Positions 8,827 through 59,098 of a stretch of 64,000 nucleotides of DNA are shown one piece after another. The notes under the pieces are model-generated. The model had not been told where the DNA came from and did no database searches. It saw nothing but the letters and a program-made list of their open reading frames with translations. Source of the stretch: Pseudomonas mendocina (GTDB lineage Bacteria; Pseudomonadota; Gammaproteobacteria; Pseudomonadales; Pseudomonadaceae); assembly GCF_900636545.1 (NCBI RefSeq), contig NZ_LR134290.1, forward strand, positions 4,464,001 to 4,528,000, given 5' to 3'. The translations under genes and the position numbers were made by a program. Within the stretch, counting starts at the first letter, position 1. Every line of letters begins with the position of its first letter.

Positions 8827-10197
8827 TCAACCCTGTTCCCAGCGTTTCATCTTCTGCACCAGCGTCGCCTGGCTGAGTCCAAGCGCCTTGGCGGCCTCGC
8901 GGGTGGTCTTGTGTTGCAGCAGCGCCTTGCCAATCAAACGCCGCTCCAGATTCTCTACCTGCTTGCGCAGCGGCAGCAGGTGGTCGCCAGCTCCGTCGCT
9001 GCGGGCAGTTCGTACCTCGTCGGGCAGATCGAACAACTCGATGGTCTCGCCGATGCTGGTGACCACGAGGCGCTCGACCAGATTGATCAGTTCACGGATG
9101 TTGCCTGGCCAGGCATAGTCGGTGAGCGTATCCAGGGCTTCCAGGCCCCAGGTGAGCGAACGTCCATAGCGCAGGTTGAATTCGGCAAGGTAGAACTGAA
9201 GCAGCGGTTGGACTTCATCGGCTCGCTCGCGCAAGGCGGGGATATGAATGGGCACCACGTTCAGCCGGTAGTAAAGGTCGGCGCGAAAACGCCCATCGGC
9301 GACCATCTGGCGCAGATCGTGATGGGTAGCGGTGATGATGCGCACGTCCACCTCTTTCAGCTCCAATCCACCCACCGGGATGAAGCGGCTCTCCTCGATC
9401 ACCTTGAGCAGCTTGACCTGCAGTGCCAGCGGCAAGTCGCCGATCTCGTCGAGAAACACCGTGCCCTGATTGGCCAGTTCGAGCAAGCCGCGCTTGCCCT
9501 TGCTGCCAGCGCCGGTGAAGGCGCCTGCCACGTAGCCGAACAACTCGGCCTCGATCAGGTTTTCCGGCAGCGCACCGCAGTTGAGCGCCAGGAACGGTTG
9601 CGCCGCACGCGAGCTGCTCTTGTGGATGTACTGGGCGATCAGTGTCTTGCCAACACCGGTTTCCCCTTGTAGGAGCACCTTCACGTCACTCCCGGCGACC
9701 TGCCGCGCCTGGGCGAAAACGCGGCCAGACGCGGGTAGATTGGCCACGGGCGAGGCATGGAGCAGGTCGTCACGTTGGCCGGCGTGCAACTTCGCCGTGC
9801 TGTTGCGCAGCTGTTTCAGTTGCTGCAGCTCGTCGCGTTCGTGCTTGATGCGCAGCAGCTCGGTCATGTCACGCACCGTGCTGACCACATAACGCACCTT
9901 GCCCTCGCTGGAGAAAATCGGCGTTCCGCTGACCAGCAGGCGCTTGCCCTGGCTGACGCTCTGCATCAGTGAAAGCGCCTTGCCTTCCTTGAGCACACGC
10001 AGCGACACCGACTGCGAGATGACGCCCTGTTCCACCAGTGCCTGCATGTGTTGGCCAACGACATCCTCGCTACGTAGCCCGGTCAGGCGTTCGTAGGCGC
10101 TATTGACCTTGAGGGTGAAGCCGTTGGCATCGGTGATGTAGAGGCCATCGTGCAGCGCATCGATCAGCTCGCGAAATCCGGGATCATCGAAGTCCAT
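8827..10197 (-). CDS. PAS-domain sigma-54-dependent transcriptional activator
   Basis: This 456-residue bacterial enhancer-binding protein has an N-terminal PAS domain (about 8-118), a central AAA+ domain and a C-terminal Fis-type helix-turn-helix ([20 protein letters not shown]). Walker A is GETGVGKT (178-185), the sigma-54 contact loop GAFTGA is at 225-230, and Walker B is FLDEIGD (248-254). AGGGTGG precedes the start. It lies directly upstream of the alcohol dehydrogenase operon, whose promoter has -24/-12 elements, so it is very likely the specific activator. The PAS domain probably senses a metabolite. Confidence 0.92.
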
Positions 10198-47639: not shown

Positions 47640-47716
47640 GGGCCTATAGCTCAGTTGGTTAGAGCAGAGGACTCATAATCCTTTGGTCCACGGTTCGAGT
47701 CCGTGTGGGCCCACCA
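47640..47716 (+). tRNA. tRNA with CAT anticodon, probably tRNA-Ile2 (lysidine-modified)
   Basis: The 77-nt gene folds as a full cloverleaf: acceptor GGGCCTA/TGGGCCC, D arm with AGTTGGTTA, anticodon loop CTCATAA, T arm with GGTTCGAGTCC, and encoded CCA. The anticodon CAT could be Met or the Ile2 species modified by TilS. The C4-G69 and C5-G68 pairs of the acceptor stem are TilS identity features and are absent in elongator Met tRNA, so Ile2 is preferred. A terminator follows at once. Confidence 0.93.
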
Positions 47717-48006: not shown

Positions 48007-48735
48007 TCAGATCATCCAGCCGCCAGCCCATACAACGCGACCGATGATCTGCAGCTCGCCCAGCCGATCCTTGGGGACGGTCATCGGGTCATATTCCTTG
48101 TTGTGGCTGATGATTCGCACCGAGCCATCAAACTGGCGCTGCAGGCGCTTGGCGTATAGGTGGTCATCGAGCATCACCACATAGACACCCTCACCCTCCA
48201 GAGTATTGCGGCTCAGGTCGATCATCACCGTATCGCCGTCATCAAGCAGCCCCACCATCGAATCGCCGTCTACACGCAGGCACGCCAGGAACGCGGGCTG
48301 CAGACCCTTTTTGCGCAGGCTGTAGCGCGTGAACGACAGGTTTACCAGCACGCGGCATCGCTCGTTCCATGCACCGCTCCCTGCGCTGCAGCGGGCGTCA
48401 TAGAGCGGAACGTACGCGTACATATCCTCATCATCTTCCTGCTTCTGAGGTTCTGCTATCTGGGTCTCACCAAGCATGCTGCCATGACCTGTGGCCACCC
48501 AGTCCAGCGAGGCGCCCTTTGCCATAGCCAGGCGGGCCAGGGAGTCGAAGGACGGCATGCCTTCCTCTGCCAGCCACCTCTGCAGGGTCGATACGGCTAC
48601 GCCAGCCATCGCGGCAGCCTGTTTACGGGATTCGAACAGGTCCGCTATCGCTTCAATGCGTGTTCCGATTCCTTTGCTGGGAAAAGGAACCGAATTTGCG
48701 CCTTCTTTGGTCTGTTCCGATTCTTCGTAACTCAT
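48007..48735 (-). CDS. Phage repressor (HTH plus S24 peptidase, lambda CI type)
   Basis: The 242-residue protein has an N-terminal helix-turn-helix (SRKQAAAMAGVAVSTLQRWL, about 37-56) and a C-terminal S24/LexA-like domain with Ser159 (VDGDSMVG) and Lys196 (HLYAKRLQ). CSAGSG near 116-121 supplies an Ala-Gly cleavage site. This is a self-cleaving, probably RecA-responsive repressor, unlike the Mu c protein. It faces left toward attL and is divergent from the early genes, as expected for the lysogeny switch. Tandem repeats at 48737-48756 near its start are operator candidates. Confidence 0.9.
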   Translation of the reverse strand: MSYEESEQTKEGANSVPFPSKGIGTRIEAIADLFESRKQAAAMAGVAVSTLQRWLAEEGMPSFDSLARLAMAKGASLDWVATGHGSMLGETQIAEPQKQEDDEDMYAYVPLYDARCSAGSGAWNERCRVLVNLSFTRYSLRKKGLQPAFLACLRVDGDSMVGLLDDGDTVMIDLSRNTLEGEGVYVVMLDDHLYAKRLQRQFDGSVRIISHNKEYDPMTVPKDRLGELQIIGRVVWAGGWMI

Positions 48736-48736
48736 T

Positions 48737-48756
48737 GATTTATCTCAGATTTATCT
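48737..48756. promoter_or_regulatory. Tandem 11-bp repeats, candidate repressor operators
   Basis: GATTTATCT occurs at 48737-48745 and again at 48748-48756, spaced by exactly 11 bp (one helical turn). The pair abuts the repressor start codon and overlaps its probable -10 region, which suits autoregulation. Confidence 0.5.
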
Positions 48757-48809
48757 AAAAATCGCCCATGAGGTCGCATAAAAGAGAATCGGAACCGCAA
48801 AAACGGGCT

Positions 48810-48837
48810 TTGACCAGTCCCGTATTTGCGTTATGTT
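48810..48837 (+). promoter_or_regulatory. Candidate phage early promoter
   Basis: TTGACC (48810-48815) and TATGTT (48832-48837), with 16-bp spacing, lie in the divergent control region and point toward the ner-like gene about 65 bp downstream. A 16-bp dyad, gccacttTCaagtggc (48871-48886), follows and may bind the Ner-like protein or the repressor. Confidence 0.5.
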
Positions 48838-48903
48838 TATGCCCTAGGACAGGTTAGACGTCCCAAAAAAGCCACTTTCAAGTGGCGTAATTAGGACAAG
48901 GGC

Positions 48904-49242
48904 ATGAACACTACCGAAATTCCAAACGACCCCACCCTTCGCTGGGAGTGGATCAAATTCCAGCTCCGCGCCAAGGGTTCCTCCCTCGCCATCGTTGCTC
49001 GCTCGCTTGGGCTTAGTGCCCAGGCCGTGAAGAACGCCAAGCGCCAGCCGTACCCAAGCGTCGAGCGTGCCATCGCCAAGGTTCTCAAGCTGCAACCGAT
49101 GCAGCTTTGGCCGGAGCGCTGGAACGAGGACGGATCGCCTCACCGCCAGCGCCCCAACCGCGCGGAATCTGTGGGGCCGCAATTGCGAAAGCATAACCCA
49201 GCTCATGACCTTGGGCACCGTAAAACCGGAACGGAGGCTTGA
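48904..49242 (+). CDS. Ner-like DNA-binding regulator
   Basis: The 112-residue protein contains the Ner/Nlp winged helix-turn-helix (LRWEWIKFQLRAKGSSLAIV, ARSLGLSAQAVKNAKRQPYP). In Mu, Ner represses the early and repressor promoters as transposition starts. The C-terminal 35 residues are basic and specific to this phage. It is the first gene of the rightward early operon. Confidence 0.85.
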   Translation: MNTTEIPNDPTLRWEWIKFQLRAKGSSLAIVARSLGLSAQAVKNAKRQPYPSVERAIAKVLKLQPMQLWPERWNEDGSPHRQRPNRAESVGPQLRKHNPAHDLGHRKTGTEA

Positions 49243-49244
49243 AC

Positions 49245-49676
49245 ATGCGTCACGGAAAAGATGACCGCACCCTAGACATCTTCGATGTTCCCCAGCCGAA
49301 GCTGGCTGTGCCCGGCGAGGGCAACTATGCCGCCGAAGTCAGCCTGATGGTCGGCTCGCTGCTCAAGGGTCTGGATCGCCGCGAGCTGGCCGCACACATG
49401 TCGCGTCTGTCTGGTGATGACGTGAGCAAGCACATGCTCGACGCCTGGGCCAGCGCCGCACGCCAGGATCACAACATTCCCTTCTACCGTGTCCCGCTCC
49501 TGGAACAGAGCTGCGACAGCCACGATCTGACCGACTGGCTGGTCGAGCAGCGCGGCGGCCGCGCTGCTTATGGCACAGAGGCGCTCGATGCTGAGCTGGG
49601 GCGCTTGAAGCGCCAGGCCGCAGCCATCACCCGCCGCGCCCGTGACCTAGAGAAGCTCATGGGGGTGCGGAAATGA
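49245..49676 (+). CDS. Conserved phage protein, unknown function
   Basis: The 143-residue product starts MRHGKDDRTLDIFDVPQPKL with GGAGG 7 bp upstream; a TTG two codons earlier is not needed. The C-terminal third is helical and basic (LKRQAAAITRRARDLEKLMG). The middle has LDRRELAAHMSRLSGDDVSK, resembling a helix-turn-helix. It is conserved in transposable-phage early regions but I cannot assign a role. It overlaps the next gene by 4 bp. Confidence 0.7.
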   Translation: MRHGKDDRTLDIFDVPQPKLAVPGEGNYAAEVSLMVGSLLKGLDRRELAAHMSRLSGDDVSKHMLDAWASAARQDHNIPFYRVPLLEQSCDSHDLTDWLVEQRGGRAAYGTEALDAELGRLKRQAAAITRRARDLEKLMGVRK

Positions 49677-49867
49677 CCAGCATCCCGCAAAGCCTCCTGG
49701 ACGATCTTCGCCACGCCACGGAGTTCTATGACTGCTGCGTTGCTGAAAGCGCAGCCGGGCACAACGACGCCGAGACAGGCACGTTCCGCGATGCCGAGGA
49801 CTGGCTCCGTAGTGCTGCGCTGAACCTGGGCGCGTTCCTTGTCCGTGGTGAGGTGCCCAATGCGTAA
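49673..49867 (+). CDS. Small phage protein, unknown
   Basis: The 64-residue acidic protein (MTSIPQSLLDDLRHATEFYD...) overlaps both its neighbours (4 bp and 8 bp), which supports its being translated. No family is recognised. It immediately precedes the transposase gene. Confidence 0.6.
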   Translation: MTSIPQSLLDDLRHATEFYDCCVAESAAGHNDAETGTFRDAEDWLRSAALNLGAFLVRGEVPNA

Positions 49868-51908
49868 GTGGTTTACCTCCGCCGAGCTGGCAGGCCTGGA
49901 CGGCATGCCAAGCACCGAACGCGGCGTGCGTAAGCTTGCTGAGCGCGAGGGCTGGGAAGGCCAACGCCGTCTCGGCTCCAAAGCCATCGAGTACCCGTTC
50001 GGGTGGCTTCCGCCCGAGACCCAGGCCGCCTTGTTGGCACGCCTTGTCGGTCAGGAAGAACCGCAACCGGAAACGATGCAGGAGCAAAAACCGTGTGAGC
50101 GTGACGCGCTTTCGGCGTCACGCTTTAGCGATTCGCAACGCTCGGTCATGCAGGCCCGCCTGTCGTTCGTACGCGAAATCGAGCGCATGAGTAAGGCCGT
50201 CACGCAACAGCGCGCCATCATGACGCTGGTAGGGCTGGCCCGTGACGGCGACCTTCCGCCTTATCTGGCTGAGCGCGTTGTCCGTGCTAATGACCGCAAG
50301 ACGGCCGACCGTTCGCTAAGCGAACGCACCCTCATGCGCTGGCTGTCCGATTACCGCAACAAAGGCGAAGCCGGCCTGGCGCCAGTACGCCGCCAAGCGG
50401 ACATGAGCGTGCCTGCTTGGGCGCCTGACTTCCTGCGCCACTACCAGCGGCCGACCAAGCCCAGCGTCGAGACGGCCTATGCCGAATACGCCGCGAAATG
50501 TACAGGCGACCGCCCGAGCATTCACCAAGTGCGGCGCTTCCTGAACAAGCTCAGCGCGGAGGCCCGCGAGCGTGGCCGCCGTAGCCCGCAGGAGCTGAAA
50601 GCGTTGCAGCCGTTCAAGCGCCGCGACACCCGCAGCATCATGCCGGGCGACGTGTACACGGCGGACGGCCACAAGTTTGACGCCGAGGTACTGAACCCGC
50701 GCACCGGCAAACCGTATCGCCCGGAAACCACCACAGTGCTCGACGTGGGCACACGCCGCGCCCTGGGCTATTCCATTGGCGAAGCCGAGTCGACAGTGGG
50801 CGTGCTCGACGCACTGCGCGATGCCGTGAAGCGTGGCGGCATGTTCGCGGTGTTCTACGTCGACAACGGCTCGGGCTTTGCCAACGACACCGTGCGTGAG
50901 GTGGTCGACCGCCTCGGCGGCACCATGACCCATGCGCTGCCTTACAACAGCCAAGCGCGTGGCTTGATCGAGCGTGCTCACCAGTCCATTTGGGTGACGG
51001 CTGCGAAGAAGCTGCCGAGCTACATCGGCGCCGCCATGGACAAGCACGCGGGCACTGCGGTGCACAGGATCAGCCGCAAGCAGTTGCGCGAGGCCGGCAC
51101 CACCGCACTAATCCCGACCTTTGCCGAGTTCATCGCGGGCGTCGAGTTTGAGCTGGAGGCTTACAACAACAGGCCGCACCGTGGCCTGGCGAAAGTCCGC
51201 GATCCGCAGACCGGTCGCATGCGCCACATGAGTCCTAACGAAGCCTGGCAGGCAGCTATCGACAGCGGCTGGGAGCCGATGCTGGCGCCTGCAGAGCTGG
51301 TAGAGGACCTGATGCGCCCGCAAGTGGTCCGCCCTGTACGCCGTGGCGAAATCACCTGGGCCGGTCACAGATACTTCCTCGACAGCCTGCGCGATCTGCA
51401 CGGCGAAGACGTGAGCGTGGCCTACGACGTGCGCGACGCCTCCCGCGTATGGGTTCGCACCCTGGAAGGCCACCTGCTCGGCGAGGCGCTTCTCGATGGC
51501 AACGCCAGCGACTACATGCCGAAAACGATGATCGAGCAGGCCTACGAGCGCCGCGAACACGGCCAGATGAAGCGCGCCATCGACAAACTGGAAACCGTGA
51601 CCGGCAAGCGTGTCGAGCTGCTTGCACCGACTACGGCACCAAGCGCCAACCTGGAGCCGGTTCAGTTGGCCAGCGCCCAGCAATACGCCGCCCTGACTCT
51701 AGACGCCCAGGCCGCCGCGTTCACCGTGCCGGGTGACCCGATGGCCCGCTACGACCTCTGGCAGAGCCTCAACGAACGCCACCTCGCTGGCGCAACCCTC
51801 ACCGATGACGAAGCCCGCTGGCATGAACGCTACCCGGCCCACCCGGACTTCGCCTCGATTCAACGCATGTATGACCAATTCGCGGAGCCGGCAACGGCCC
51901 GCGCTTGA
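49860..51908 (+). CDS. DDE transposase, MuA type
   Basis: The 682-residue protein starts MRKWFTSAELAGLDGMPSTE with the Mu-type winged-helix DNA-binding domain. The catalytic core has Asp269 (ADGHKF), Asp335 (YVDNGSGF) and Glu371 (GLIERAHQS), close to Asp269, Asp336 and Glu392 of MuA. The C-terminal region should bind the MuB partner. It cuts and joins the phage ends for replicative transposition. GAGG precedes the ATG at 49860. Confidence 0.94.
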   Translation: MRKWFTSAELAGLDGMPSTERGVRKLAEREGWEGQRRLGSKAIEYPFGWLPPETQAALLARLVGQEEPQPETMQEQKPCERDALSASRFSDSQRSVMQARLSFVREIERMSKAVTQQRAIMTLVGLARDGDLPPYLAERVVRANDRKTADRSLSERTLMRWLSDYRNKGEAGLAPVRRQADMSVPAWAPDFLRHYQRPTKPSVETAYAEYAAKCTGDRPSIHQVRRFLNKLSAEARERGRRSPQELKALQPFKRRDTRSIMPGDVYTADGHKFDAEVLNPRTGKPYRPETTTVLDVGTRRALGYSIGEAESTVGVLDALRDAVKRGGMFAVFYVDNGSGFANDTVREVVDRLGGTMTHALPYNSQARGLIERAHQSIWVTAAKKLPSYIGAAMDKHAGTAVHRISRKQLREAGTTALIPTFAEFIAGVEFELEAYNNRPHRGLAKVRDPQTGRMRHMSPNEAWQAAIDSGWEPMLAPAELVEDLMRPQVVRPVRRGEITWAGHRYFLDSLRDLHGEDVSVAYDVRDASRVWVRTLEGHLLGEALLDGNASDYMPKTMIEQAYERREHGQMKRAIDKLETVTGKRVELLAPTTAPSANLEPVQLASAQQYAALTLDAQAAAFTVPGDPMARYDLWQSLNERHLAGATLTDDEARWHERYPAHPDFASIQRMYDQFAEPATARA

Positions 51909-51925
51909 CCTGGGGAGTAACACCT

Positions 51926-52648
51926 ATGAGCGTTTCCAAGATCGTACCTTTAACCAACGTCGGCCTCCTGGCCAGCGCCATTGACCGTGCCCTGCAACGC
52001 CCGGTCGGCCTGCCCGGCCTGGTAGTCATGTTCGGGCCGAGTGGCTTTGGTAAGTCCGTTGCCGCAGCCTGTGCCGCCAACCAGCACCGCGCCTATTACG
52101 TCGAGTGCCGTGATAGCTGGACTAAGAAGGCGTTCCTACTCGCCATCCTGCGCGATATGGCGATCACCCCGGCCCGCAACATCAGCGAGATGGTCGACCA
52201 GATCGCCGAGCAGCTCAGCTTGAGCAACCGGCCGCTGATCGTCGATGACGTGCAGTACCTCCTGGACAAGAGCGCGGCCAACGTCCTGACCGACCTCTAC
52301 AACGCCAGCCAGGGCACCATCATCCTGATCGGTGAAGAGAAGGTCGCCAGCAGCCTGTCCAGGCTGGAGCGCCTGCACAACCGCGTGCTGGAGTGGGTGC
52401 CCGCCCAGGCTGCCAACCTGGTGGACGTCAAGCGCCTGGCCAGCGTCAGTTACCCGAACCTGCGCCTGGCAGATGATCTGCTGCAAGACCTGAACAACGC
52501 TGTTAAAGGCTGCCTGCGTCGGGTCGCGGTCAACCTGCACCGTGTGAACAGCGAAGCCACTGCGTCCGGTCTGGAAGAAGTTGACTTGGCCACTTGGGGC
52601 AAGCGCGGCTGGTTCACTGGCGCAGCCCCTGCGCGGAGGGTTGCTTGA
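51926..52648 (+). CDS. AAA+ target-DNA activator, MuB type
   Basis: This 240-residue ATPase has Walker A GPSGFGKS (37-44) and Walker B LIVDDVQYL, and resembles MuB, which delivers target DNA and stimulates MuA. The ATG at 51926 has a GGAG site 9 bp upstream and starts 17 bp after the transposase stop. The next gene overlaps its stop by 1 bp (TGATG). Confidence 0.9.
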   Translation: MSVSKIVPLTNVGLLASAIDRALQRPVGLPGLVVMFGPSGFGKSVAAACAANQHRAYYVECRDSWTKKAFLLAILRDMAITPARNISEMVDQIAEQLSLSNRPLIVDDVQYLLDKSAANVLTDLYNASQGTIILIGEEKVASSLSRLERLHNRVLEWVPAQAANLVDVKRLASVSYPNLRLADDLLQDLNNAVKGCLRRVAVNLHRVNSEATASGLEEVDLATWGKRGWFTGAAPARRVA

Positions 52649-53253
52649 TGGCTGCCGGACGCAAAGCGATTCACTTGGAAATGCGCGGCGGTAAGAACAA
52701 CCGGCAGCGCGTGTGGGAGGCCATCCGAGCGGCGGCCGACAGCTTCACCAGCTACAACGTGGCCCGCAAATCGAACGTCGACCACGCCACTGTCCGCACC
52801 TACCTCCAGGGGCTGATGAAGGGCGGCTATGTGAAGGTACTCAGTGGCGGCCGTTTCGAGGAACAGACCTTCGCCCTGGCTAATGACATCGGCGCGGAAG
52901 CGCCCGCTGTTACCCGTGACGGCAAAGCCAGCACGGCAGGTTCGGGAACCGAAGCCATGTGGCGCTCGCTGCGCATCCTGGGCGAGCTGGATGCCCAGGA
53001 GCTGGCGGATCAGGCCTCGATTGCGACGCCGACCACCCGAAGCACCGCCATGCGCTACCTACAGTGGCTGGTGCATGCCGGCTATGTCCAGGTCGTGAGC
53101 AAGGGCGCGCCGGGCAAGCCTGCCCGTTACCGCCTAATTCCCCAGCGCTACAGCGGCCCGCGCCCGCCGATGATTCAGCGGATTGGTCAGGTGTTTGACC
53201 CGAACCTGGGCAAGGTCGTTTACCGCCAGCCCGAGCCGGAGGGCGACGAATGA
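52648..53253 (+). CDS. Phage protein with two winged-helix-like domains
   Basis: The 201-residue product appears to have two helix-turn-helix modules: SFTSYNVARKSNVDHATVRT near the N-terminus and ELADQASIATPTTRSTAMRY in the middle. It was probably formed by duplication. Its position just after MuB suggests a regulatory role in early transcription or replication. I do not recognise a named family. Confidence 0.65.
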   Translation: MAAGRKAIHLEMRGGKNNRQRVWEAIRAAADSFTSYNVARKSNVDHATVRTYLQGLMKGGYVKVLSGGRFEEQTFALANDIGAEAPAVTRDGKASTAGSGTEAMWRSLRILGELDAQELADQASIATPTTRSTAMRYLQWLVHAGYVQVVSKGAPGKPARYRLIPQRYSGPRPPMIQRIGQVFDPNLGKVVYRQPEPEGDE

Positions 53254-53636
53254 ATCGCGCCGCCCGCGTAGACCTTTCGGCATGGGGCGAACAGCCGCCG
53301 CTGTTCGTCAGCCTGCTGGCACGTGAGGTCGAGAACAGCAACCGCACCAAGGCGGCCGGCCGCATCGGCATGAGCCGCACAGCCGTAACCCTGCTGTTGC
53401 AGAACCGCTACCCGTCACCAAGCACTGAGCACGTTGAGCGCCGTGTGATGGACACCCTCGGCCGCATCGAGTGCGTCGCGCTGGGTGAGGTGATCACGGC
53501 CGAGCAGTGCCAAAGCTACCGCGAAAAGCCCGCGCCTACCCACAACCCACACGCGATGCAGCACTGGCGCGCCTGCCATCACTGCCCGCAAAACCCCCGC
53601 TGTGCCGCACAGGAGCAACGTTATGGCAGCCACTGA
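53250..53636 (+). CDS. Small phage HTH protein with C-terminal Cys cluster
   Basis: The 128-residue protein has a helix-turn-helix-like segment (TKAAGRIGMSRTAVTLLLQN) and ends with a cluster WRACHHCPQNPRCAAQ that could bind a metal. It overlaps the preceding gene by 4 bp and the following gene by 14 bp. Function is unknown; a DNA-binding regulator is likely. Confidence 0.6.
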   Translation: MNRAARVDLSAWGEQPPLFVSLLAREVENSNRTKAAGRIGMSRTAVTLLLQNRYPSPSTEHVERRVMDTLGRIECVALGEVITAEQCQSYREKPAPTHNPHAMQHWRACHHCPQNPRCAAQEQRYGSH

Positions 53637-53928
53637 GCAACGCCCGATGAAAGTCCTGACCCCAGCGCTGGCCACCAGCCTGCGCGACTTCAACGCAGCC
53701 GCCCGCCACCTCCAGGCCATGGGCGTGCGACTGCTGCAGATCAAACCCACTGAGAACCGCCTGGAGATCAGCCCCGAAGACGGCGAACGCCTGCAAGGCA
53801 AGCGCCTGACCGAGGGCTACCAGCGCCACGCCTCGGCAGGGAGTGACCGCATCACGGTGATGTTTGAGGGCGTAACCCTCGAATGGCGCCGCCCTATCAG
53901 CTACCGCGATTTTCAAATCATTCACTGA
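53623..53928 (+). CDS. Small phage protein, unknown
   Basis: The 101-residue product (MAATEQRPMKVLTPALATSL...) has GGAG 8 bp before its ATG and overlaps the previous gene by 14 bp. No motif is recognised. It precedes the Gam gene by 15 bp. Confidence 0.6.
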   Translation: MAATEQRPMKVLTPALATSLRDFNAAARHLQAMGVRLLQIKPTENRLEISPEDGERLQGKRLTEGYQRHASAGSDRITVMFEGVTLEWRRPISYRDFQIIH

Positions 53929-53943
53929 GAGAGGACCCCAAAC

Positions 53944-54462
53944 ATGGCACCGAAAAAACGACTGAAAGCCGCCGCTGCTCAGAACATCCCGCAGACCCGC
54001 GACCAGGTGGTAAGCGACATCAAAGCCATCGGCGACGTGCAGCGCGAAATCACCCGACTCGAAACCCAAATGAATGACGAAATCGGTGAAGTTACCGAGC
54101 GCTTTGCCGGCCCCGTCGATGATCTTAAAAAGCGCCTGGCTGCCCTGCAGGGCGGCGTACAGGGCTGGTGCGAGGCCCACCGCGCCGAGCTGACCGATAA
54201 CAACAAGGTCAAGTTTGCCAACCTGGTGACCGGCGAAGTGCAGTGGCGCTGCCGCCCGCCGAGCGTGACCGTGCGTGGCGCCGATACCGTCCTGGAGTTG
54301 CTCAAGGTCAAGGGACTTGAGCGCCTGATTCGCACTAAGGAGGAGGTGAACAAAGAGGCCATCCTCAACGAACCGGAGGCCGTCGAAGGGCTGCCGGGCG
54401 TGACCATCAACCGCGATATCGAGGACTTCGCAATCGTGCCCTTTGAACAGGCGGTGCAGTGA
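53944..54462 (+). CDS. Gam-like host-nuclease inhibitor
   Basis: This 172-residue helical protein matches the Mu Gam family: an N-terminal coiled coil (VQREITRLETQMNDEIGEVT, about 37-56) and the later segment KVKFANLVTGEVQWRCRPPS. Gam binds DNA ends and protects linear phage DNA from RecBCD, and is related to the Ku end-binding fold. It lies in the early region, as in Mu. Confidence 0.88.
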   Translation: MAPKKRLKAAAAQNIPQTRDQVVSDIKAIGDVQREITRLETQMNDEIGEVTERFAGPVDDLKKRLAALQGGVQGWCEAHRAELTDNNKVKFANLVTGEVQWRCRPPSVTVRGADTVLELLKVKGLERLIRTKEEVNKEAILNEPEAVEGLPGVTINRDIEDFAIVPFEQAVQ

Positions 54463-54463
54463 C

Positions 54464-54907
54464 ATGAGCACTTCCATTGTCGAGTTCGCAGACAACGGTC
54501 AGGACTTCCTGCACTGGGTGCTGGATGCCGAGGGCGTGGTGGTCGACTCGCGCCCTTTTCAGGGCGACGTCTGGCGAGGGTTGAAAGTGACCAACCTGGA
54601 AAAGCTCAAGGCGGGCGGTGTGGTCGAGTACCGACACCACGGCCGCGCCGGTTGCATCAGCCACCTGGTGCGGTCGGTGGTTCCAGTCGTACCGACGGAG
54701 GTTGCGGTGCGGGCCAACGGCATTGCCGGGTACGTGACCAGTTCAGTTCGCGGCAAGAAAGTTTCCTGCACTCACAGCGACGAGTACGCAGTTCAACAGC
54801 TCGCCAAGAAGCTATTCCCAGACCGTCCTAGCGTTGTCGAGCGCGTGCCGTTCAAGGCAGACGGTCGTATACACAGCAAATGGCTCATTACTCCTGAGGG
54901 GGCTTGA
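54464..54907 (+). CDS. Phage early-region protein, unknown
   Basis: The 147-residue product begins MSTSIVEFADNGQDFLHWVL. It is followed with no gap by two further small genes. I see no transmembrane segment or recognisable motif. It is in the semi-essential early region, where Mu-like phages carry accessory genes. Confidence 0.55.
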   Translation: MSTSIVEFADNGQDFLHWVLDAEGVVVDSRPFQGDVWRGLKVTNLEKLKAGGVVEYRHHGRAGCISHLVRSVVPVVPTEVAVRANGIAGYVTSSVRGKKVSCTHSDEYAVQQLAKKLFPDRPSVVERVPFKADGRIHSKWLITPEGA

Positions 54908-54908
54908 A

Positions 54909-55175
54909 ATGACCAAGTTCTATGCGGTCTGCGACATCAGCGGGGCAATCAGGATCACCGACGAGAAACCCTGCGAGGGGCAATTCGCCCTTGCCGTTGG
55001 GGAGTTTGATGCGGTGATCGACACCATTGCCAAGACCAGTGGTGGGTGCCCCGCCAACCAGGTTCCTGGCGTGGAGCCTAATGGCGATACCCGCGCAAAC
55101 CTGGGCGCCATCGCTCGATACATCCAGCTGCTGGGCACTCTTGAAGTGCCGGGCTTTCGAGCGTTGGGGGTCTGA
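54909..55175 (+). CDS. Small phage protein, unknown
   Basis: The 88-residue protein (MTKFYAVCDISGAIRITDEK...) starts 2 bp after the previous stop and ends directly against the next start. Function is unknown. Confidence 0.55.
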   Translation: MTKFYAVCDISGAIRITDEKPCEGQFALAVGEFDAVIDTIAKTSGGCPANQVPGVEPNGDTRANLGAIARYIQLLGTLEVPGFRALGV

Positions 55176-55367
55176 ATGAGCAAGGTCACTTTCATTCTTG
55201 AAGACCAGGACGGCGATGTGCGGCTGACGCTGGACTTGCGCCAGGGCGACGAGCGCATGCCGGCTGGCCGCCTTGCCGGAGAGCTGTACGCGGATGCGAT
55301 GCAGCGCATGTACCTGGCCCGCGTTCCGGCCTGCTACCGGCACCCGCCATCCAACACCCTCCATTGA
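55176..55367 (+). CDS. Small phage protein preceding a hammerhead ribozyme
   Basis: The 63-residue protein (MSKVTFILEDQDGDVRLTLD...) has no recognised family. Its TGA stop (55365-55367) is immediately followed by the first hammerhead ribozyme, and the proposed distal part of ribozyme stem II includes its last codons. Confidence 0.55.
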   Translation: MSKVTFILEDQDGDVRLTLDLRQGDERMPAGRLAGELYADAMQRMYLARVPACYRHPPSNTLH

Positions 55368-55430
55368 GCGAAACCGCCCCGGCCTAGCCGGGGATGGTCT
55401 GCCCAGCGTGGTGGCTGGGTACTGACGAGC
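55368..55430 (+). ncRNA. Hammerhead ribozyme 1 (type II)
   Basis: The order is GC-GAAA (GAAA 55370-55373), stem III hairpin closed by A73-U98 with a bulged A94 and a 7-bp GC stem (ccccggc/gccgggg), cleavage triplet GUC ending at 55399, stem I of 8 bp (tgcccagc/gctgggta, loop gtggtg), then CUGACGA (55422-55428) and GC. The flanking GC/GC pair begins stem II, so this is the type II circular permutation. All invariant core bases are present. A distal CUCCA/UGGAG pairing (55359-55363 with 55437-55441) may extend stem II. Cleavage is expected after C55399. Confidence 0.88.
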
Positions 55431-55446
55431 AGCCACTGGAGAGAAC

Positions 55447-56118
55447 ATGGATCGCAAGAAAGCCCTGGATAAGGTCAAGAAGTGCCTGGCCTTGGCCAAT
55501 AGCAGCAACCCCAACGAAGCGGCCGCAGCGATGCGACAGGCCCGCGCGATGATGGAGAAGTACCAGCTAGAGCAGAGCGACCTGGACCTGTACGAGATCG
55601 AGGAGCACAGCGCCCGAAGCGGTTCGAAGATGAACCCCGCGCAATGGGAAGCCTACCTGGCGCAGATCATCGCCGAGGCCTATGCCTGCCGCCTTATTTT
55701 CATGCCCGGTCTGGGCGACTGGCGATTCGTTGGCGAGATGGCCGAGGTGGCTGGTTACGCCATGACCGTGCTGCTGCGCAAAGTGCGCCAGGCCCGCCGC
55801 GAGTACATCGGCAATGATCTGAAACGCTGCAAACCAGCCAACAAGACCAAGCGGGCCGACCAGTTCTGCGACGGCTGGGTGTGGGCTGTGCGCAAAGAGG
55901 TGATGCAGTTCGCAGGCGCCGCGCCATCAGATGCGACTGAGGCTTACATGCTCAAGCATTACCCCAAGTTGATCACCGGCAAGTCTATCGACCGCAACAG
56001 CAGCACCAAGGCTATGAGTCAGCGGGCGATTAGCGATGCTACAGCGGGCATCCGAGCAGCCAATGGTGTGCAACTGCAGCACGGTGTGCGTGGCGCCGAA
56101 CAGCTGGCCCTGACCTGA
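55447..56118 (+). CDS. DUF2786 domain phage protein
   Basis: The 223-residue protein starts with the DUF2786 motif (DKVKKCLALANSSNPNEAAA, MRQARAMMEKYQLEQ). The rest has MNPAQWEAYLAQIIAEAYAC and a basic C-terminus. The domain is frequent in phages, with unknown function. The GGAGAG Shine-Dalgarno lies in the 3' strand of the proposed distal stem II of hammerhead 1, so ribozyme folding could affect its translation. Confidence 0.75.
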   Translation: MDRKKALDKVKKCLALANSSNPNEAAAAMRQARAMMEKYQLEQSDLDLYEIEEHSARSGSKMNPAQWEAYLAQIIAEAYACRLIFMPGLGDWRFVGEMAEVAGYAMTVLLRKVRQARREYIGNDLKRCKPANKTKRADQFCDGWVWAVRKEVMQFAGAAPSDATEAYMLKHYPKLITGKSIDRNSSTKAMSQRAISDATAGIRAANGVQLQHGVRGAEQLALT

Positions 56119-56128
56119 GGACATGACG

Positions 56129-56362
56129 ATGACCCTGACAAGCGCCCCTGTAGATGCGCCTGCGATAAAGCGGAGCAAGCACGGCTGCTGCGCCGACGAG
56201 GCATGTACTGACGCGACCTGCATGGAACTGCCAGCAGGAAAGGCCTGTGGCGACTGCGTGCATGAGCACCGCTGCTGCCTGATCTTTGGCCACACGCCAA
56301 CGGACACCTACTGCGACTGGTTCCCGCGCCGCTTCCGCGAGAAGGTCATCAACCCCAACTAA
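56129..56362 (+). CDS. Cysteine-rich small phage protein
   Basis: The 77-residue product has about nine cysteines, spaced as HGCCADEACTDATC and later KACGDCVHEHRCC, which may bind zinc. I chose the second ATG (56129) because GAGG lies 8 bp before it; the ATG at 56123 is too close. Its TAA (56360-56362) directly precedes hammerhead 2. No function is known. Confidence 0.6.
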   Translation: MTLTSAPVDAPAIKRSKHGCCADEACTDATCMELPAGKACGDCVHEHRCCLIFGHTPTDTYCDWFPRRFREKVINPN

Positions 56363-56424
56363 GCGAAACCTCGCCCCACCAGGGGCGAAGGTCTGCCGGG
56401 CGTGGTGGCCCGGTACTGATGAGC
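56363..56424 (+). ncRNA. Hammerhead ribozyme 2 (type II)
   Basis: GC-GAAA (56365-56368) is followed by stem III (A68-U92, C69-G91, C70-G90, U71-A89, bulged A88, cgcccc/ggggcg, loop acca), cleavage triplet GUC ending at 56393, stem I of 8 bp (tgccgggc/gcccggta, same loop gtggtg), then CUGAUGA (56416-56422) and GC. Compared with hammerhead 1, stem I changes AG to GG on one side with CT to CC on the other, and a G-U pair in stem III becomes U-A; the bases differ but pairing is kept. Confidence 0.88.
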
Positions 56425-56431
56425 AGCCGCA

Positions 56432-56710
56432 ATGAATGAATCGACACAAGACCGCAAACGCCGATTGAGCCGCGCTCGCTCGGCCCGTTACCGCAAGAAC
56501 AAGCGCGACCAGGTGGCGCGGGTTAAAGGCGTCAAGTTCAAGGGCGTCTTTGGCGCGGGAACCATGGCCGATCTGGAGCGCGTCCGCGCCGAGTGTGGGT
56601 GCCAGAACATCGAGGAGACGATTGCGCTGATGGCTCGATTCGTCGCGGCATCCGTTCGCCTCGATCCGCTAGCAGTGCGAACGGCCATGAACCCGAGGAA
56701 CCCGGTATGA
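56432..56710 (+). CDS. Small basic phage protein
   Basis: The 92-residue protein has a strongly basic N-terminus (DRKRRLSRARSARYRKNKRD) and an amphipathic C-terminal half. It may be a ribbon-helix-helix type regulator; this is uncertain. Its ATG starts 8 bp after the hammerhead 2 core and there is no strong Shine-Dalgarno outside the ribozyme. It overlaps the gp16-like gene by 4 bp. Confidence 0.55.
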   Translation: MNESTQDRKRRLSRARSARYRKNKRDQVARVKGVKFKGVFGAGTMADLERVRAECGCQNIEETIALMARFVAASVRLDPLAVRTAMNPRNPV

Positions 56711-57105
56711 GCACAGGCAAGACGAAAATTCAAATCGCCCGCCGCCAACTCGGCCTGGACGATGAAACGTACCGCGCGATCCTCAAGCGCACTGTTGGGG
56801 TTGAGTCGTCAAAAGACCTGACCCCGCGCCAGATCGGCCGCGTCCTTGTCGAGCTGGAGCGCTTGGGGTTCAAGCCCAAGGCATCGACCGGTCGCGCCAA
56901 GCCGAAGCCGGCTGCCGAGCGCGCCAAGCTGGTCGGCAAGATCGAGGCGCAACTGGCTGAGGCTGGCCGCCCTTGGGACTATGCCGACGCCCTGGCCGCC
57001 CGCATGTACCAGGTCGAGCGCCTGGAGTGGTGCGACAGCAAGCAACTGGGCGGCATCATTACCGCGCTGGCCAAGGATGCCGAGCGCCACGGGCGGCCGC
57101 TATGA
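56707..57105 (+). CDS. gp16-like (DUF1018) phage protein
   Basis: The 132-residue protein has the DUF1018 pattern: KIQIARRQLGLDDETYRAIL, then DLTPRQIGRVLVELERLGFK, with a C-terminal segment QVERLEWCDSKQLGGIITAL. Mu gp16 is of unknown function and lies just before Mor, as here. The ATG at 56707 has GAGGAAC upstream. Confidence 0.85.
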   Translation: MSTGKTKIQIARRQLGLDDETYRAILKRTVGVESSKDLTPRQIGRVLVELERLGFKPKASTGRAKPKPAAERAKLVGKIEAQLAEAGRPWDYADALAARMYQVERLEWCDSKQLGGIITALAKDAERHGRPL

Positions 57106-57542
57106 AACTGGAACAGGCCCGTGACCTGCTGCCGCCGACCGTGCAACGCATTGCCGAAGTAGTCGGCCTGCCCGCCACGATGAAGCTAGTGGCCGAGCTG
57201 GGCGGCACGTCCTGGTTCTTTGCCCAGGGTGTCGGCCGCAATGGCCAAGCCCGTGTTGCTGCGCTGGCCGAGATCGTTGGCGAGGAAGCGGCCGAGAAGC
57301 TCGGGCGCTATGCCAGCGAGCGCGAAACGATCTACATACCCAAGTGCGACGCGGCACTGATCGCGCTGCGCGATGCCGAGATTCATCGCCAGTTTGAACA
57401 AGCGACGCGCGAGGGTGTCAGTGCAAATACCGTCGTTAACGAGCTGGCCCGCACCTACCAGCTCAGCGACCGCCATATCTGGCGCATTCTCAAGCGCCTG
57501 CCCGAACTGGCCGCCCCGTCTACGCCCGACCTGTTCAACTGA
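57102..57542 (+). CDS. Mor-family middle transcription activator
   Basis: The 146-residue protein resembles Mu Mor: an N-terminal part with VQRIAEVVGLPATMKLVAEL and a helix-turn-helix near the C-terminus (EGVSANTVVNELARTYQLSD, RHIWRILKR). Mor activates the middle promoter with sigma-70. The target promoter should be near the gene end or within the 55-bp gap after it. It overlaps the gp16-like gene by 4 bp. Confidence 0.85.
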   Translation: MKLEQARDLLPPTVQRIAEVVGLPATMKLVAELGGTSWFFAQGVGRNGQARVAALAEIVGEEAAEKLGRYASERETIYIPKCDAALIALRDAEIHRQFEQATREGVSANTVVNELARTYQLSDRHIWRILKRLPELAAPSTPDLFN

Positions 57543-57579
57543 GTTACTGACACCCGTCCGCTAATACCTGCATACCGAT

Positions 57580-57597
57580 GCCGCCGACCATGGCGGC
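57580..57597 (+). promoter_or_regulatory. Hairpin abutting the start codon of the next gene
   Basis: gccgcc (57580-57585) pairs with ggcggc (57592-57597), leaving the 6-nt loop gaccat; the ATG follows at 57598. The stem occupies the place of the Shine-Dalgarno, so it may limit initiation until unfolded. Confidence 0.45.
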
Positions 57598-57933
57598 ATG
57601 AACACTCTAGACCCCAGCACTCTCACCAGCCCCCGCGCCTACGCTTCCGCCGTATTGGCCGAGGCGGCGCTCGACCGCCGCCAGTGGCTGATGGAGCGCT
57701 GCCCGGTCGATTGGCGCGCCCAGGTCGAGGAGCACGTCAAGAGCGCATTTCCGAAAGTCGCAGCCTACCGTCGTCACCGTGCCGGCCGGGAAGAACAGGC
57801 GCGCGAGAAGCCACCGGCCGCACAGCGCCGCGATGCCACGCCAAAGCCCCGCCCCGTATCACGCTCGGCCCCCGAGGTGGGTAATGCGGCTATCGCCAAG
57901 CTACGTAACGCCATCGGCAAGGGTGCCGCATGA
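57598..57933 (+). CDS. Phage protein downstream of mor, unknown
   Basis: The 111-residue protein (MNTLDPSTLTSPRAYASAVL...) has a Pro/Arg-rich C-terminal half (about 66-95). It is the first gene after mor and overlaps the endolysin gene by 4 bp. A role in lysis control or regulation is possible, but nothing is recognised. Confidence 0.6.
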   Translation: MNTLDPSTLTSPRAYASAVLAEAALDRRQWLMERCPVDWRAQVEEHVKSAFPKVAAYRRHRAGREEQAREKPPAAQRRDATPKPRPVSRSAPEVGNAAIAKLRNAIGKGAA

Positions 57934-58463
57934 GCCTGCGTGGACGTATCGCAGCCGGCACTCTGTTGCTGGCCAGCACCGGCCTTATGGCCTTTCTGGG
58001 CACCTGGGAAGGTGACGGGCAAAACACCGTCTACGGCGACAAGCTGGCCCGTGGCCTGCCCACCGTATGCAAGGGCATCACCAAGCACACCAGCCCTTAC
58101 CCGGTAATCGTCGGTGACTACTGGTCGGACGAGCGCTGCGAAGAGGTAGAGCGCCTTGTTGTCAGCAACGGCCAGCTGGAGCTGGCGGACTGCATCACCA
58201 ACCAGGACATCAGCCAGAAAACCTTCGACGCGCTGAGCAGCCATGGCCACAACTTTGGCAACCCGTCTACATGCGCAAGCCGGGCCGTCGTCCTGATCAA
58301 CCGGGGGCGCGTGGCCGAGGGCTGCAATGCCCTTGCATGGGGGGCGGATGGCCGCCCGGTGTGGGCATACGTCACCGATGCCAATGGACGCCTGGTGTTC
58401 GTGCGGGGGCTGCACCTTCGCCGCCTGGATGAGCGCCGCCTGTGCCTGGAGGGTCTGCAATGA
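57930..58463 (+). CDS. GH24 endolysin with N-terminal SAR domain
   Basis: The 177-residue lysozyme has a weakly hydrophobic N-terminus (GRIAAGTLLLASTGLMAFLG), like signal-anchor-release endolysins that are exported by Sec and stay tethered until the membrane is depolarised. The T4-like catalytic triad is probably Glu27, Asp37 and Thr45 (WEGDGQNTVYGDKLARGLPT). Spanin genes follow directly. Confidence 0.85.
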   Translation: MSLRGRIAAGTLLLASTGLMAFLGTWEGDGQNTVYGDKLARGLPTVCKGITKHTSPYPVIVGDYWSDERCEEVERLVVSNGQLELADCITNQDISQKTFDALSSHGHNFGNPSTCASRAVVLINRGRVAEGCNALAWGADGRPVWAYVTDANGRLVFVRGLHLRRLDERRLCLEGLQ

Positions 58464-59098
58464 AGTGGCTCAGCGTCCTGCGTCCCTTACTGCCGTTTGC
58501 CGTGACACTGGGTGTTTTGGCAGGCGTTTACTTGCTGATCGATCAGCTTGAGCAAGCGGCATATCGCCGTGGGTTTGGCATGGCCCAAACCGAAGGCGCC
58601 CTTGCCCTGGAAACGCTGCGCGGCGAGCACCAGGCCCAGGAGCTGGCCCGCTCCCTGGCCGCCGAGGCCGATGCCAAAGCCGCCGCAAAACGCCTGCAGG
58701 AAGAGCAGGCCCGTAACGACAAGCTCGCGTCAGACCTGGCCGAGCAGCAACGCCAACACCGCAAAACAACCGACTACCTCTCAGGGGAGATTGCCCGTGT
58801 CGCCGACCTTTACCGGGAGGCGCTCGACGCGCCGCCTAAGCCTCTACCTGCTTGCGTGTTCACTGCTGGCTGGGTGCGGATTTATGACGAAGCAACCGGC
58901 GCCCGAGCCGCAATGTCCGGCGCCGCAGATTCCGGCCGAGCTGCTGCGCAAGGCCCCGACCCCGTCGCCGCTGAGCAACTCGATTCAGGCCTCAGCCAGG
59001 CCGCTCTCCTGGGACACCACATCCAGTACGCCGAGCAGTGCCGCAACACAGCGGCACAGCTGGACGCTCTGATCGACGCGGTCTTGGGGGGCAAATGA
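58460..59098 (+). CDS. Inner-membrane spanin (Rz-like)
   Basis: The 212-residue protein has one N-terminal transmembrane segment (LLPFAVTLGVLAGVYLLIDQ) and a long Ala/Glu/Gln/Lys-rich coiled coil (about 50-110), the layout of i-spanins that join the membranes during lysis. It overlaps the endolysin stop by 4 bp. A second ORF for the outer-membrane partner is embedded in the +1 frame. Confidence 0.8.
   Translation: MKWLSVLRPLLPFAVTLGVLAGVYLLIDQLEQAAYRRGFGMAQTEGALALETLRGEHQAQELARSLAAEADAKAAAKRLQEEQARNDKLASDLAEQQRQHRKTTDYLSGEIARVADLYREALDAPPKPLPACVFTAGWVRIYDEATGARAAMSGAADSGRAAAQGPDPVAAEQLDSGLSQAALLGHHIQYAEQCRNTAAQLDALIDAVLGGK
58797..59072 (+). CDS. Embedded outer-membrane spanin lipoprotein (Rz1-like)
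   Basis: A 91-residue ORF lies wholly inside the i-spanin gene in another frame. It starts with GTG preceded by AGGGGAG at 7-bp spacing. The signal RRLSLYLLACSLLAGCGF has a canonical lipobox LAGC with mature Cys27. The mature part is Pro-rich (QPAPEPQCPAPQIPAELL), typical of Rz1. A TTG two codons upstream is another start. This is the classic embedded Rz/Rz1 arrangement. Confidence 0.8.
   Translation: MSPTFTGRRSTRRLSLYLLACSLLAGCGFMTKQPAPEPQCPAPQIPAELLRKAPTPSPLSNSIQASARPLSWDTTSSTPSSAATQRHSWTL

Follow-up and report, generated by a model that had tools for sequence, protein, structure and literature searches.

Hammerhead ribozymes clustered in prophages are the closest described counterparts of the elements analysed here. 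The available text of Perreault et al. 2011 (PMC3088659) describes prophages in which several hammerheads lie around one gene or a short run of genes, an arrangement that implies processing of long phage transcripts into operon- or gene-length mRNAs. The identities of the flanked genes are not constant there, and a triple from Agrobacterium (A. tumefaciens), cloned in E. coli, cleaves in vivo; the available main text does not contain the word 'Pseudomonas' (PMC3088659). A 2017 review (PMC6155905), in its accessible part, describes retrozymes and calls the role of hammerheads in bacteria and phages an open question. PMC10651486, which mentions both the hammerhead ribozyme and DMS3, employs the hammerhead as an added tool in its accessible part.

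We analysed a window of 64,000 nucleotides of Pseudomonas mendocina DNA, the right part of which is a Mu-like prophage by gene order: a Mu-type transposase, AAA ATPase, Gam, GemA, Mor and Mu portal are encoded in this order. Immediately beyond the left part of the prophage is a tRNA-Met gene (CAT, 47640-47716). Inside the prophage, two same-strand hammerhead ribozymes, HHR1 (entry) and HHR2 (exit), flank two genes, as in clustered prophage hammerheads (Table 1). A sequence-only reading had placed such a pair around the DUF2786 and Cys-rich genes of an early transcript; the Rfam and Pfam positions confirm the bracketing, and the gene content of the region resembles the early operon of a Mu-like prophage. 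The processing idea that came with that reading had already been published in 2011 for clustered prophage hammerheads (PMC3088659, available text). The sole sigma-70-like promoter match in 48500-58500, at 48810, is weak evidence (1 found versus 1.6 expected from shuffles). We found no intrinsic terminator at HHR1 and one terminator-like match, on the minus strand, at HHR2. The PHROG family of the DUF2786 protein (phrog_421) is of unknown function. The Cys-rich protein, g6 and a further cargo protein, c3, match only PHROG families of unknown function and no Pfam family above cut-offs.

Table 1. Features of the prophage region, in positions of the window.
Feature	Position	Strand	Basis or remark
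CI-like repressor	48007-48735	minus	
Mu-type transposase	49839-51908		
g3, 63 aa, upstream slot edge	55176..55367	+	stop abuts HHR1
Entry type II hammerhead ribozyme HHR1	55365..55449	+	RF02276 63.4 bits; stop TGA of g3 to ATG of DUF2786
HHR1 predicted cleavage site	55399..55400	+	inferred; sequence checked
Predicted released RNA, 994 nt	55400..56393	+	arithmetic; product ends folded
Cargo gene 1: DUF2786 + DUF7168, 223 aa, phrog_421	55447..56118	+	PF10979 E 6.1e-14; PF23771 E 1.4e-24
Cargo gene 2: Cys-rich protein, 79 aa, phrog_10154	56123..56362	+	PHROG; stop abuts HHR2
Exit type II hammerhead ribozyme HHR2	56360..56434	+	RF02276 69 bits; model R1 80 bits; base-by-base reading
HHR2 predicted cleavage site (after C17 of GUC, C56393)	56393..56394	+	inferred from hammerhead core; sequence checked
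HHR2 tertiary contact, 4-bp pseudoknot	56402..56429	+	loop I 56403-56406 (UGGU) with tail 56426-56429 (GCCG)
g6, 92 aa basic protein, phrog_4093, downstream slot edge	56432..56710	+	ATG touches HHR2
GemA, next operon gene	56707..57105	+	PF06252

An Rfam scan of the entire window on both strands at the gathering threshold (cut-off of 37 for RF02276, Hammerhead_II) matched HHR2 at 56361-56432 (E 2.8e-12) and HHR1 at 55366-55438 (E 8.4e-11), the latter beginning 995 nt before HHR2. A third RF02276 copy was not found in the genome of origin (5,192,837 bases, one contig; E 0.001). HHR2 spans from the TAA of the Cys-rich gene (56360-56362) to the ATG of g6. Read base by base, the TAA runs directly into the first stem II strand (GC, 56363-56364) and GAAA (56365-56368); stem I, TGCCGGGC/GCCCGGTA, lies inside 56394-56415, and the core CTGATGA (56416-56422) is followed by the second stem II strand (GC, 56423-56424) and the pseudoknot strand GCCG (56426-56429). 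The CUGAUGA, GUC, GAAA and both stems named by the sequence-only reading are thus all present, as are the stop codon at the start and the start codon a few bases behind. Its box, 56363-56424, holds the core and stems and misses the 3' pseudoknot strand. HHR1 repeats this architecture part for part, as had been noted, from the TGA of g3 to CUGGAGAGAAC-AUG of DUF2786. It has CTGACGA for CTGATGA in the core, a difference at the free N7 position, and its region includes a GGAG Shine-Dalgarno-like motif ahead of the DUF2786 ATG. The two copies therefore differ in junction class: HHR1 is a Shine-Dalgarno-bearing entry, and HHR2 is a Shine-Dalgarno-less exit.

Both copies have the type II hammerhead core C3 U4 G5 A6 N7 G8 A9, G12 A13 A14 A15.1-U16.1 and H17. 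Some of the core positions follow the available text of PMC3088659. By Rfam, alignment and base-by-base reading, stems I and III are loop-closed and stem II is open, and loop I pairs with the 3' tail in a pseudoknot of four pairs. The window elements share all core nucleotides, the three stems with open stem II and the pseudoknot with RF02276, and they show no essential difference from it; stem III of HHR2 carries a bulged A. Judged by its sequence, HHR2 is a hammerhead, as first observed, and a canonical type II one, with predicted catalysis.

We sought evidence of conserved pairing in an alignment of 119 matches (114 distinct rows) from 83 sources that were hand-picked, with near-duplicates left out. 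Base-pair cells pair in 96.4% of cases and 16 of 24 pairs have changed on both sides; since stems I-III guided the alignment, these counts are biased towards the structure. The signal vanishes when the partners are slid, none of 500 shuffles reached any of five measures, and covariation is strong also in a set of 27 sequences. The pseudoknot is absent from the fitted model, yet it pairs in 96.5% of cells. Its columns are invariant or changed on one side, with no double changes in the 114 rows; the 27-row set holds a single double change, A-U for G-C. A strict motif pattern matched twice in the window and never in 6.4 million bases of simulated sequence (first-order Markov, derived from the window). 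A chance motif is ruled out by the Rfam scores, the conserved pairing and these pattern counts.

The minimum free energy (MFE) fold of HHR2 (z = -3.48 for 56360-56434) forms both stems III and I. For HHR1 (z = -2.62 for 55365-55446), the unconstrained MFE fold forms stem III, and a rival pairing takes up stem I and the tail; the stem I hairpin does fold in the 3' product of HHR1. In the separated cleavage products, the hairpins at the ends fold. The cleavage positions that had been named, 55399/55400 and 56393/56394, agree with the sites predicted from the sequence. The predicted cuts would leave leaders of 47 nt on DUF2786 and 38 nt on g6, and the expected RNA of about 1 kb comes to 994 nt; its release as a discrete molecule is plausible.

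We searched for related ribozymes in genomes and phages. RF02276 occurs in 20 of 398 genus genomes (two copies in 8, one in 12) and in 17 of 298 genomes of a family draw that overlaps the genus draw (16 above cut-off). Viral records fetched via DUF2786 carry it in 21 of 22 cases, nine with two copies; 13 of the 22 have one or no ribozyme, and many of these are fragments. Of 68 gemA-bearing viral loci, 35 have a ribozyme and 33 have none, with less than 900 nt upstream of gemA in five of the 33. Blastn of a phage collection (E up to 0.1) found similar sequence in 109 records; Pseudomonas phages account for 76. Model R1 matches in DMS3, D3112, JBD24, JBD69, HW12, LPB1, JBD30, PaMx73, Gregale and Meadow. 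It has no match in the 5,579 nt of phage B3 that were scanned; B3 encodes a DUF2786 relative (35.1%). We considered and rejected another ribozyme class as a stand-in: Rfam on 20 sources, namely 19 of the 33 ribozyme-free gemA loci and a 5.6-kb stretch of phage B3, returned only C4 antisense RNA and tRNA. The type II hammerhead of four genus genomes (L066-L069) is divergent (38.6-43.6 bits); its surroundings differ from the slot described here, and its 3' flank (about TTCTATGGGTTATAGGTCCT) is conserved.

The Casadabanvirus phages DMS3, D3112, JBD30 and JBD24 have the same ribozyme behind the same preceding gene, before g6 or DUF2786. They show one ribozyme in the stretches scanned, whereas the window has two, and JBD24 has DUF2786 without an exit ribozyme by model R1. 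The records of DMS3, D3112 and JBD30 carry no RNA feature at the ribozyme site. Those of DMS3 (DMS3-17; L092:3072-3365) and D3112 (orf17; L093) start the post-ribozyme gene later than the conserved ATG that touches the ribozyme; read from this ATG, the frame spans just 50 codons in the D3112 record. On the DMS3 record, the predicted cut behind GUC falls at 8982/8983. The annotated coding sequence of HW12 (L178:2011-2322) begins inside the ribozyme (model match 2010-2084), which is probably an annotation artefact.

We next consider the genes around the ribozymes. At least 274 model matches gave at least 207 distinct ribozymes, of which 204 were analysed after L035, L036 and L197 were dropped; in these three, GTGAAA replaces GCGAAA and the stem II C-G pair becomes U-G. 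The census is non-random: some loci were reached via DUF2786 or gemA, others via the ribozyme or, among the viral matches listed, via a sequence pattern. Neighbour genes were grouped by single linkage. The g3 cluster lies upstream of 93 of the 204 ribozymes and never downstream, and a cluster named HU-like from its sequence (c4) lies upstream of 22. Conversely, g6 lies downstream 74 times and upstream never, and its profile has no match in the 33 ribozyme-free gemA loci. The commonest cargo is DUF2786, c3 (median 137 aa, phrog_5671) and the Cys-rich gene; the order of Cys and DUF2786 varies, with both orders found (the window versus L044, L053 and L059). At least 19 loci with g3 or c4 are cargo-free, having one ribozyme and g6 directly behind it; they were recognised via ribozyme plus g6, so ribozyme-less cargo-free slots could be missed. 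From these comparisons, the ribozymes are markers of one slot in Mu-like phages, g3-HHR-cargo-HHR-g6.

The geometry of the junctions recurs as well. In 144 of the 204 ribozymes the upstream stop codon abuts the stem II GC (TAA 79, TGA 65); it ends one base earlier in 19 more and one base later in 7. Starts lie 6-9 nt behind the ribozyme in 82 cases, 0-2 nt behind in 73, 3 nt behind in 8 and at other distances in 33; none was found in 8. A Shine-Dalgarno-like motif precedes 77 of the 82 starts at 6-9 nt and 0 of the 73 at 0-2 nt (0 of 8 at 3 nt, 24 of 33 at the remaining distances). Cargo falls mostly in the 6-9 nt class (DUF2786 27/27, c3 35/38, Cys 7/11), and g6 mostly in the 0-2 nt class (69/74). 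That g6 starts at the ribozyme-touching ATG is supported by ATG in 66 of 66 cases and by the dominance of third-position substitutions from codon 2 (397/274/1629 at codon positions 1/2/3; codons 2-31, 232 pairs). Neither the two junction classes nor the marking of an exchangeable slot by the pair was part of the sequence-only reading. Where both copies could be parsed (54 loci), the two share an identical stem I in 3 cases and an identical stem III in none, a divergence that rules out recent tandem duplication there; the comparison covers parseable ribozymes, and at least L047, L097 and L229 among 45 rows inspected were mis-parsed.

Compared with the clusters in the available text of PMC3088659, the window shares the type II fold, the loop I-tail pseudoknot, multi-copy flanking and the processing hypothesis. 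It differs in having one Mu-like slot with the edges g3 and g6, fusion to stop codons, two junction classes and cargo switching at the ribozyme. In the literature searched, mostly non-subscription and in part only as accessible text, we did not find the slot rule, the junction classes or the crossover evidence.

We favour, as probable though well short of certain, a reading in which the two type II hammerheads split the early polycistronic RNA into modules and also serve as a cargo joint. HHR1 and HHR2 would cut in cis straight after synthesis of this RNA, yielding three pieces: (i) the genes through g3; (ii) the 994-nt cargo RNA with DUF2786 and the Cys-rich gene; and (iii) g6-gemA onwards. 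Hammerhead cleavage leaves a 5'-OH and a 3' end with a 2',3'-cyclic phosphate, and RNase E prefers a 5'-monophosphate. Each cut would cap both new ends with a hairpin: stem III would close the upstream RNA at its 3' end, and stem I the downstream RNA at its 5'-OH. Such caps would guard against exonucleases as well as 5'-monophosphate-dependent RNase E, and each module would gain separate stability and translation. The ribozyme would double as the fixed joint where cargo is swapped or lost. We infer cleavage in vivo, end protection and selection for modular expression.

Several observations favour this modularisation: the cores are complete, RF02276 scores lie far above cut-off, stems covary, placement is strictly junctional, the slot recurs, paired copies are not fresh duplicates, the product-end hairpins fold, and there is the A. 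tumefaciens precedent. Against it, the pair is not obligatory, given single-copy genomes, ribozyme-free gemA loci and the ribozyme-less B3 with its DUF2786 relative, and the MFE fold of HHR1 prefers a rival pairing over stem I. Neither a spliced nor a circular product was found by Perreault et al. (PMC3088659, available text), which also counts against it. Ribosomes terminating at the abutting stop could block ribozyme folding, and cleavage may then be partial. The idea of a better mRNA is insufficient alone, since g6 behind exit ribozymes lacks a Shine-Dalgarno motif.

The strongest competitor, which we hold to be unlikely but worth weighing, is that the ribozyme is a block of about 70 nt of homology at gene boundaries through which cargo is swapped, with self-cleavage incidental or tolerated. 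JBD24 and DMS3 illustrate such a swap. They are 98.4% identical over 2776 nt, ending at the GCAGCC of the ribozyme; behind it DMS3 continues directly with the g6 ATG and JBD24 with DUF2786, and the two rejoin at the g6 ATG (96.2% over 2427 nt). After the DUF2786 stop, JBD24 (L094:3758-3778) and LPB1 (L179:2491-2511) share TGAGCG-CGTCCGG(T/C)G-ATGACG, which may, as a guess from its sequence, be a shrunken exit ribozyme. A gene called c7 sits behind some Casadabanvirus ribozymes; by PHROG, its Meadow copy (L184:2101-2322, phrog_3273) weakly resembles Lar-like restriction alleviation proteins (E 0.0029).

We quantified such switches in close pairs, defined as having at least one 120-nt side at 85% identity or more, among loci with 120 nt on both sides. 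At the entry ribozyme, gene content changes from one side to the other in 72 of 294 such pairs, versus 0/276 at a control place 150 nt upstream, 0/366 inside gemA and 0/169 at the mor start. The 69 switch pairs with a common upstream side were profiled over the last part of the ribozyme, starting 24 nt ahead of the CTGA core, with the stem III part outside the profile, and running through GCAGCC. Identity is 0.91-1.00 at all these positions but N7 (0.23), and it drops immediately after GCAGCC. These pairs are non-independent: they come from 30 loci, and 45 of them repeat a single contrast, c7 versus g6. This tempers the homology-block reading. So do the 27 of 375 pairs that switch at the ribozyme-free gemA start and the exit ribozyme's mere 9 of 190. 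Moreover, joints between phage modules often lie at gene boundaries in any case.

A four-combination test points to the ribozyme itself. From 16 loci with 90% ungapped identity to DMS3 over 200 nt upstream (a filter that JBD30 and LPB1 failed), 13 have downstream allele A or B. Among these 13, the downstream allele combines in all four ways with 15 of 24 informative upstream sites, and likewise with the stop-codon context and the stem III loop. N7 follows the downstream allele without exception (alleles: 8 B, 5 A, 3 C). Because the loci are related by descent, these counts do not represent independent events. These marker combinations suggest crossovers inside the ribozyme, between stem III and core. 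Yet the combinations are incomplete at 9 of the 24 sites, the change at N7 could be due to mutation, and a homology block needs no catalytic core, covariation or pseudoknot, all of which are kept.

The exit junction raises a further alternative, which we regard as doubtful: the exit ribozyme could be the translation start region of g6, its fold locking the region before the ATG until cleavage or unfolding by ribosomes frees it, with the corollary that ribosomes halting at the abutting stop would hinder ribozyme folding. The contrast in Shine-Dalgarno-like motifs between starts at 0-2 nt and at 6-9 nt speaks for this, as do the supported g6 start, the rarity of internal in-frame starts with a motif (only 5 of 66) and the lack of a g6 profile match in ribozyme-free gemA loci. 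This support is purely geometric, however. The missing motif follows from the ribozyme's own sequence reaching the ATG, g6 may be confined to the ribozyme-bearing phage lineage, and the gate does not account for the use of a motif-less ATG after cleavage.

We give a similarly low chance to the combination in which these type II hammerheads are two-faced joints, with expression and recombination modules in one element. As RNA, the fold would place the upstream stop and the downstream start on the two strands of the 2-bp stem II; the intact form would couple translation across the junction and cleavage would uncouple it, the exit ribozyme being the g6 start region. As DNA, the same roughly 70 nt would be the homology block for exchange of early-gene cargo.

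Retrozymes and other hammerhead-bounded RNAs have two same-strand ribozymes bounding about 1 kb, as in the window, a layout that speaks for the pair excising a circular or mobile RNA of retrozyme- or viroid-like kind. We nevertheless consider this very improbable. The window pair is type II, not I or III, and lies in a DNA phage operon; its segment is protein-coding with variable cargo, and in most pairs stems I and III are not the same in both copies. The host genome has no match to RtcB (PF01139; 9 of 14 controls matched), so it offers no RtcB-type ligase and RtcB-mediated circles are unlikely. That Perreault et al. detected no circular or spliced products (PMC3088659, available text) weighs against circles too. 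Finally, that the elements are non-functional relics or chance hairpins is hardly credible in view of their Rfam scores, covariation and recurring position.

Modularisation by cis-cleavage is thus the most likely role of the pair, with a linker role as its likely side effect or a second role. DMS3, D3112 and JBD30, which can be grown on standard laboratory hosts, carry the ribozyme unannotated, which makes its role testable. Natural allele swaps and near-identical phages with and without cargo are at hand, and each hypothesis predicts a defined RNA end or a change in a reporter.
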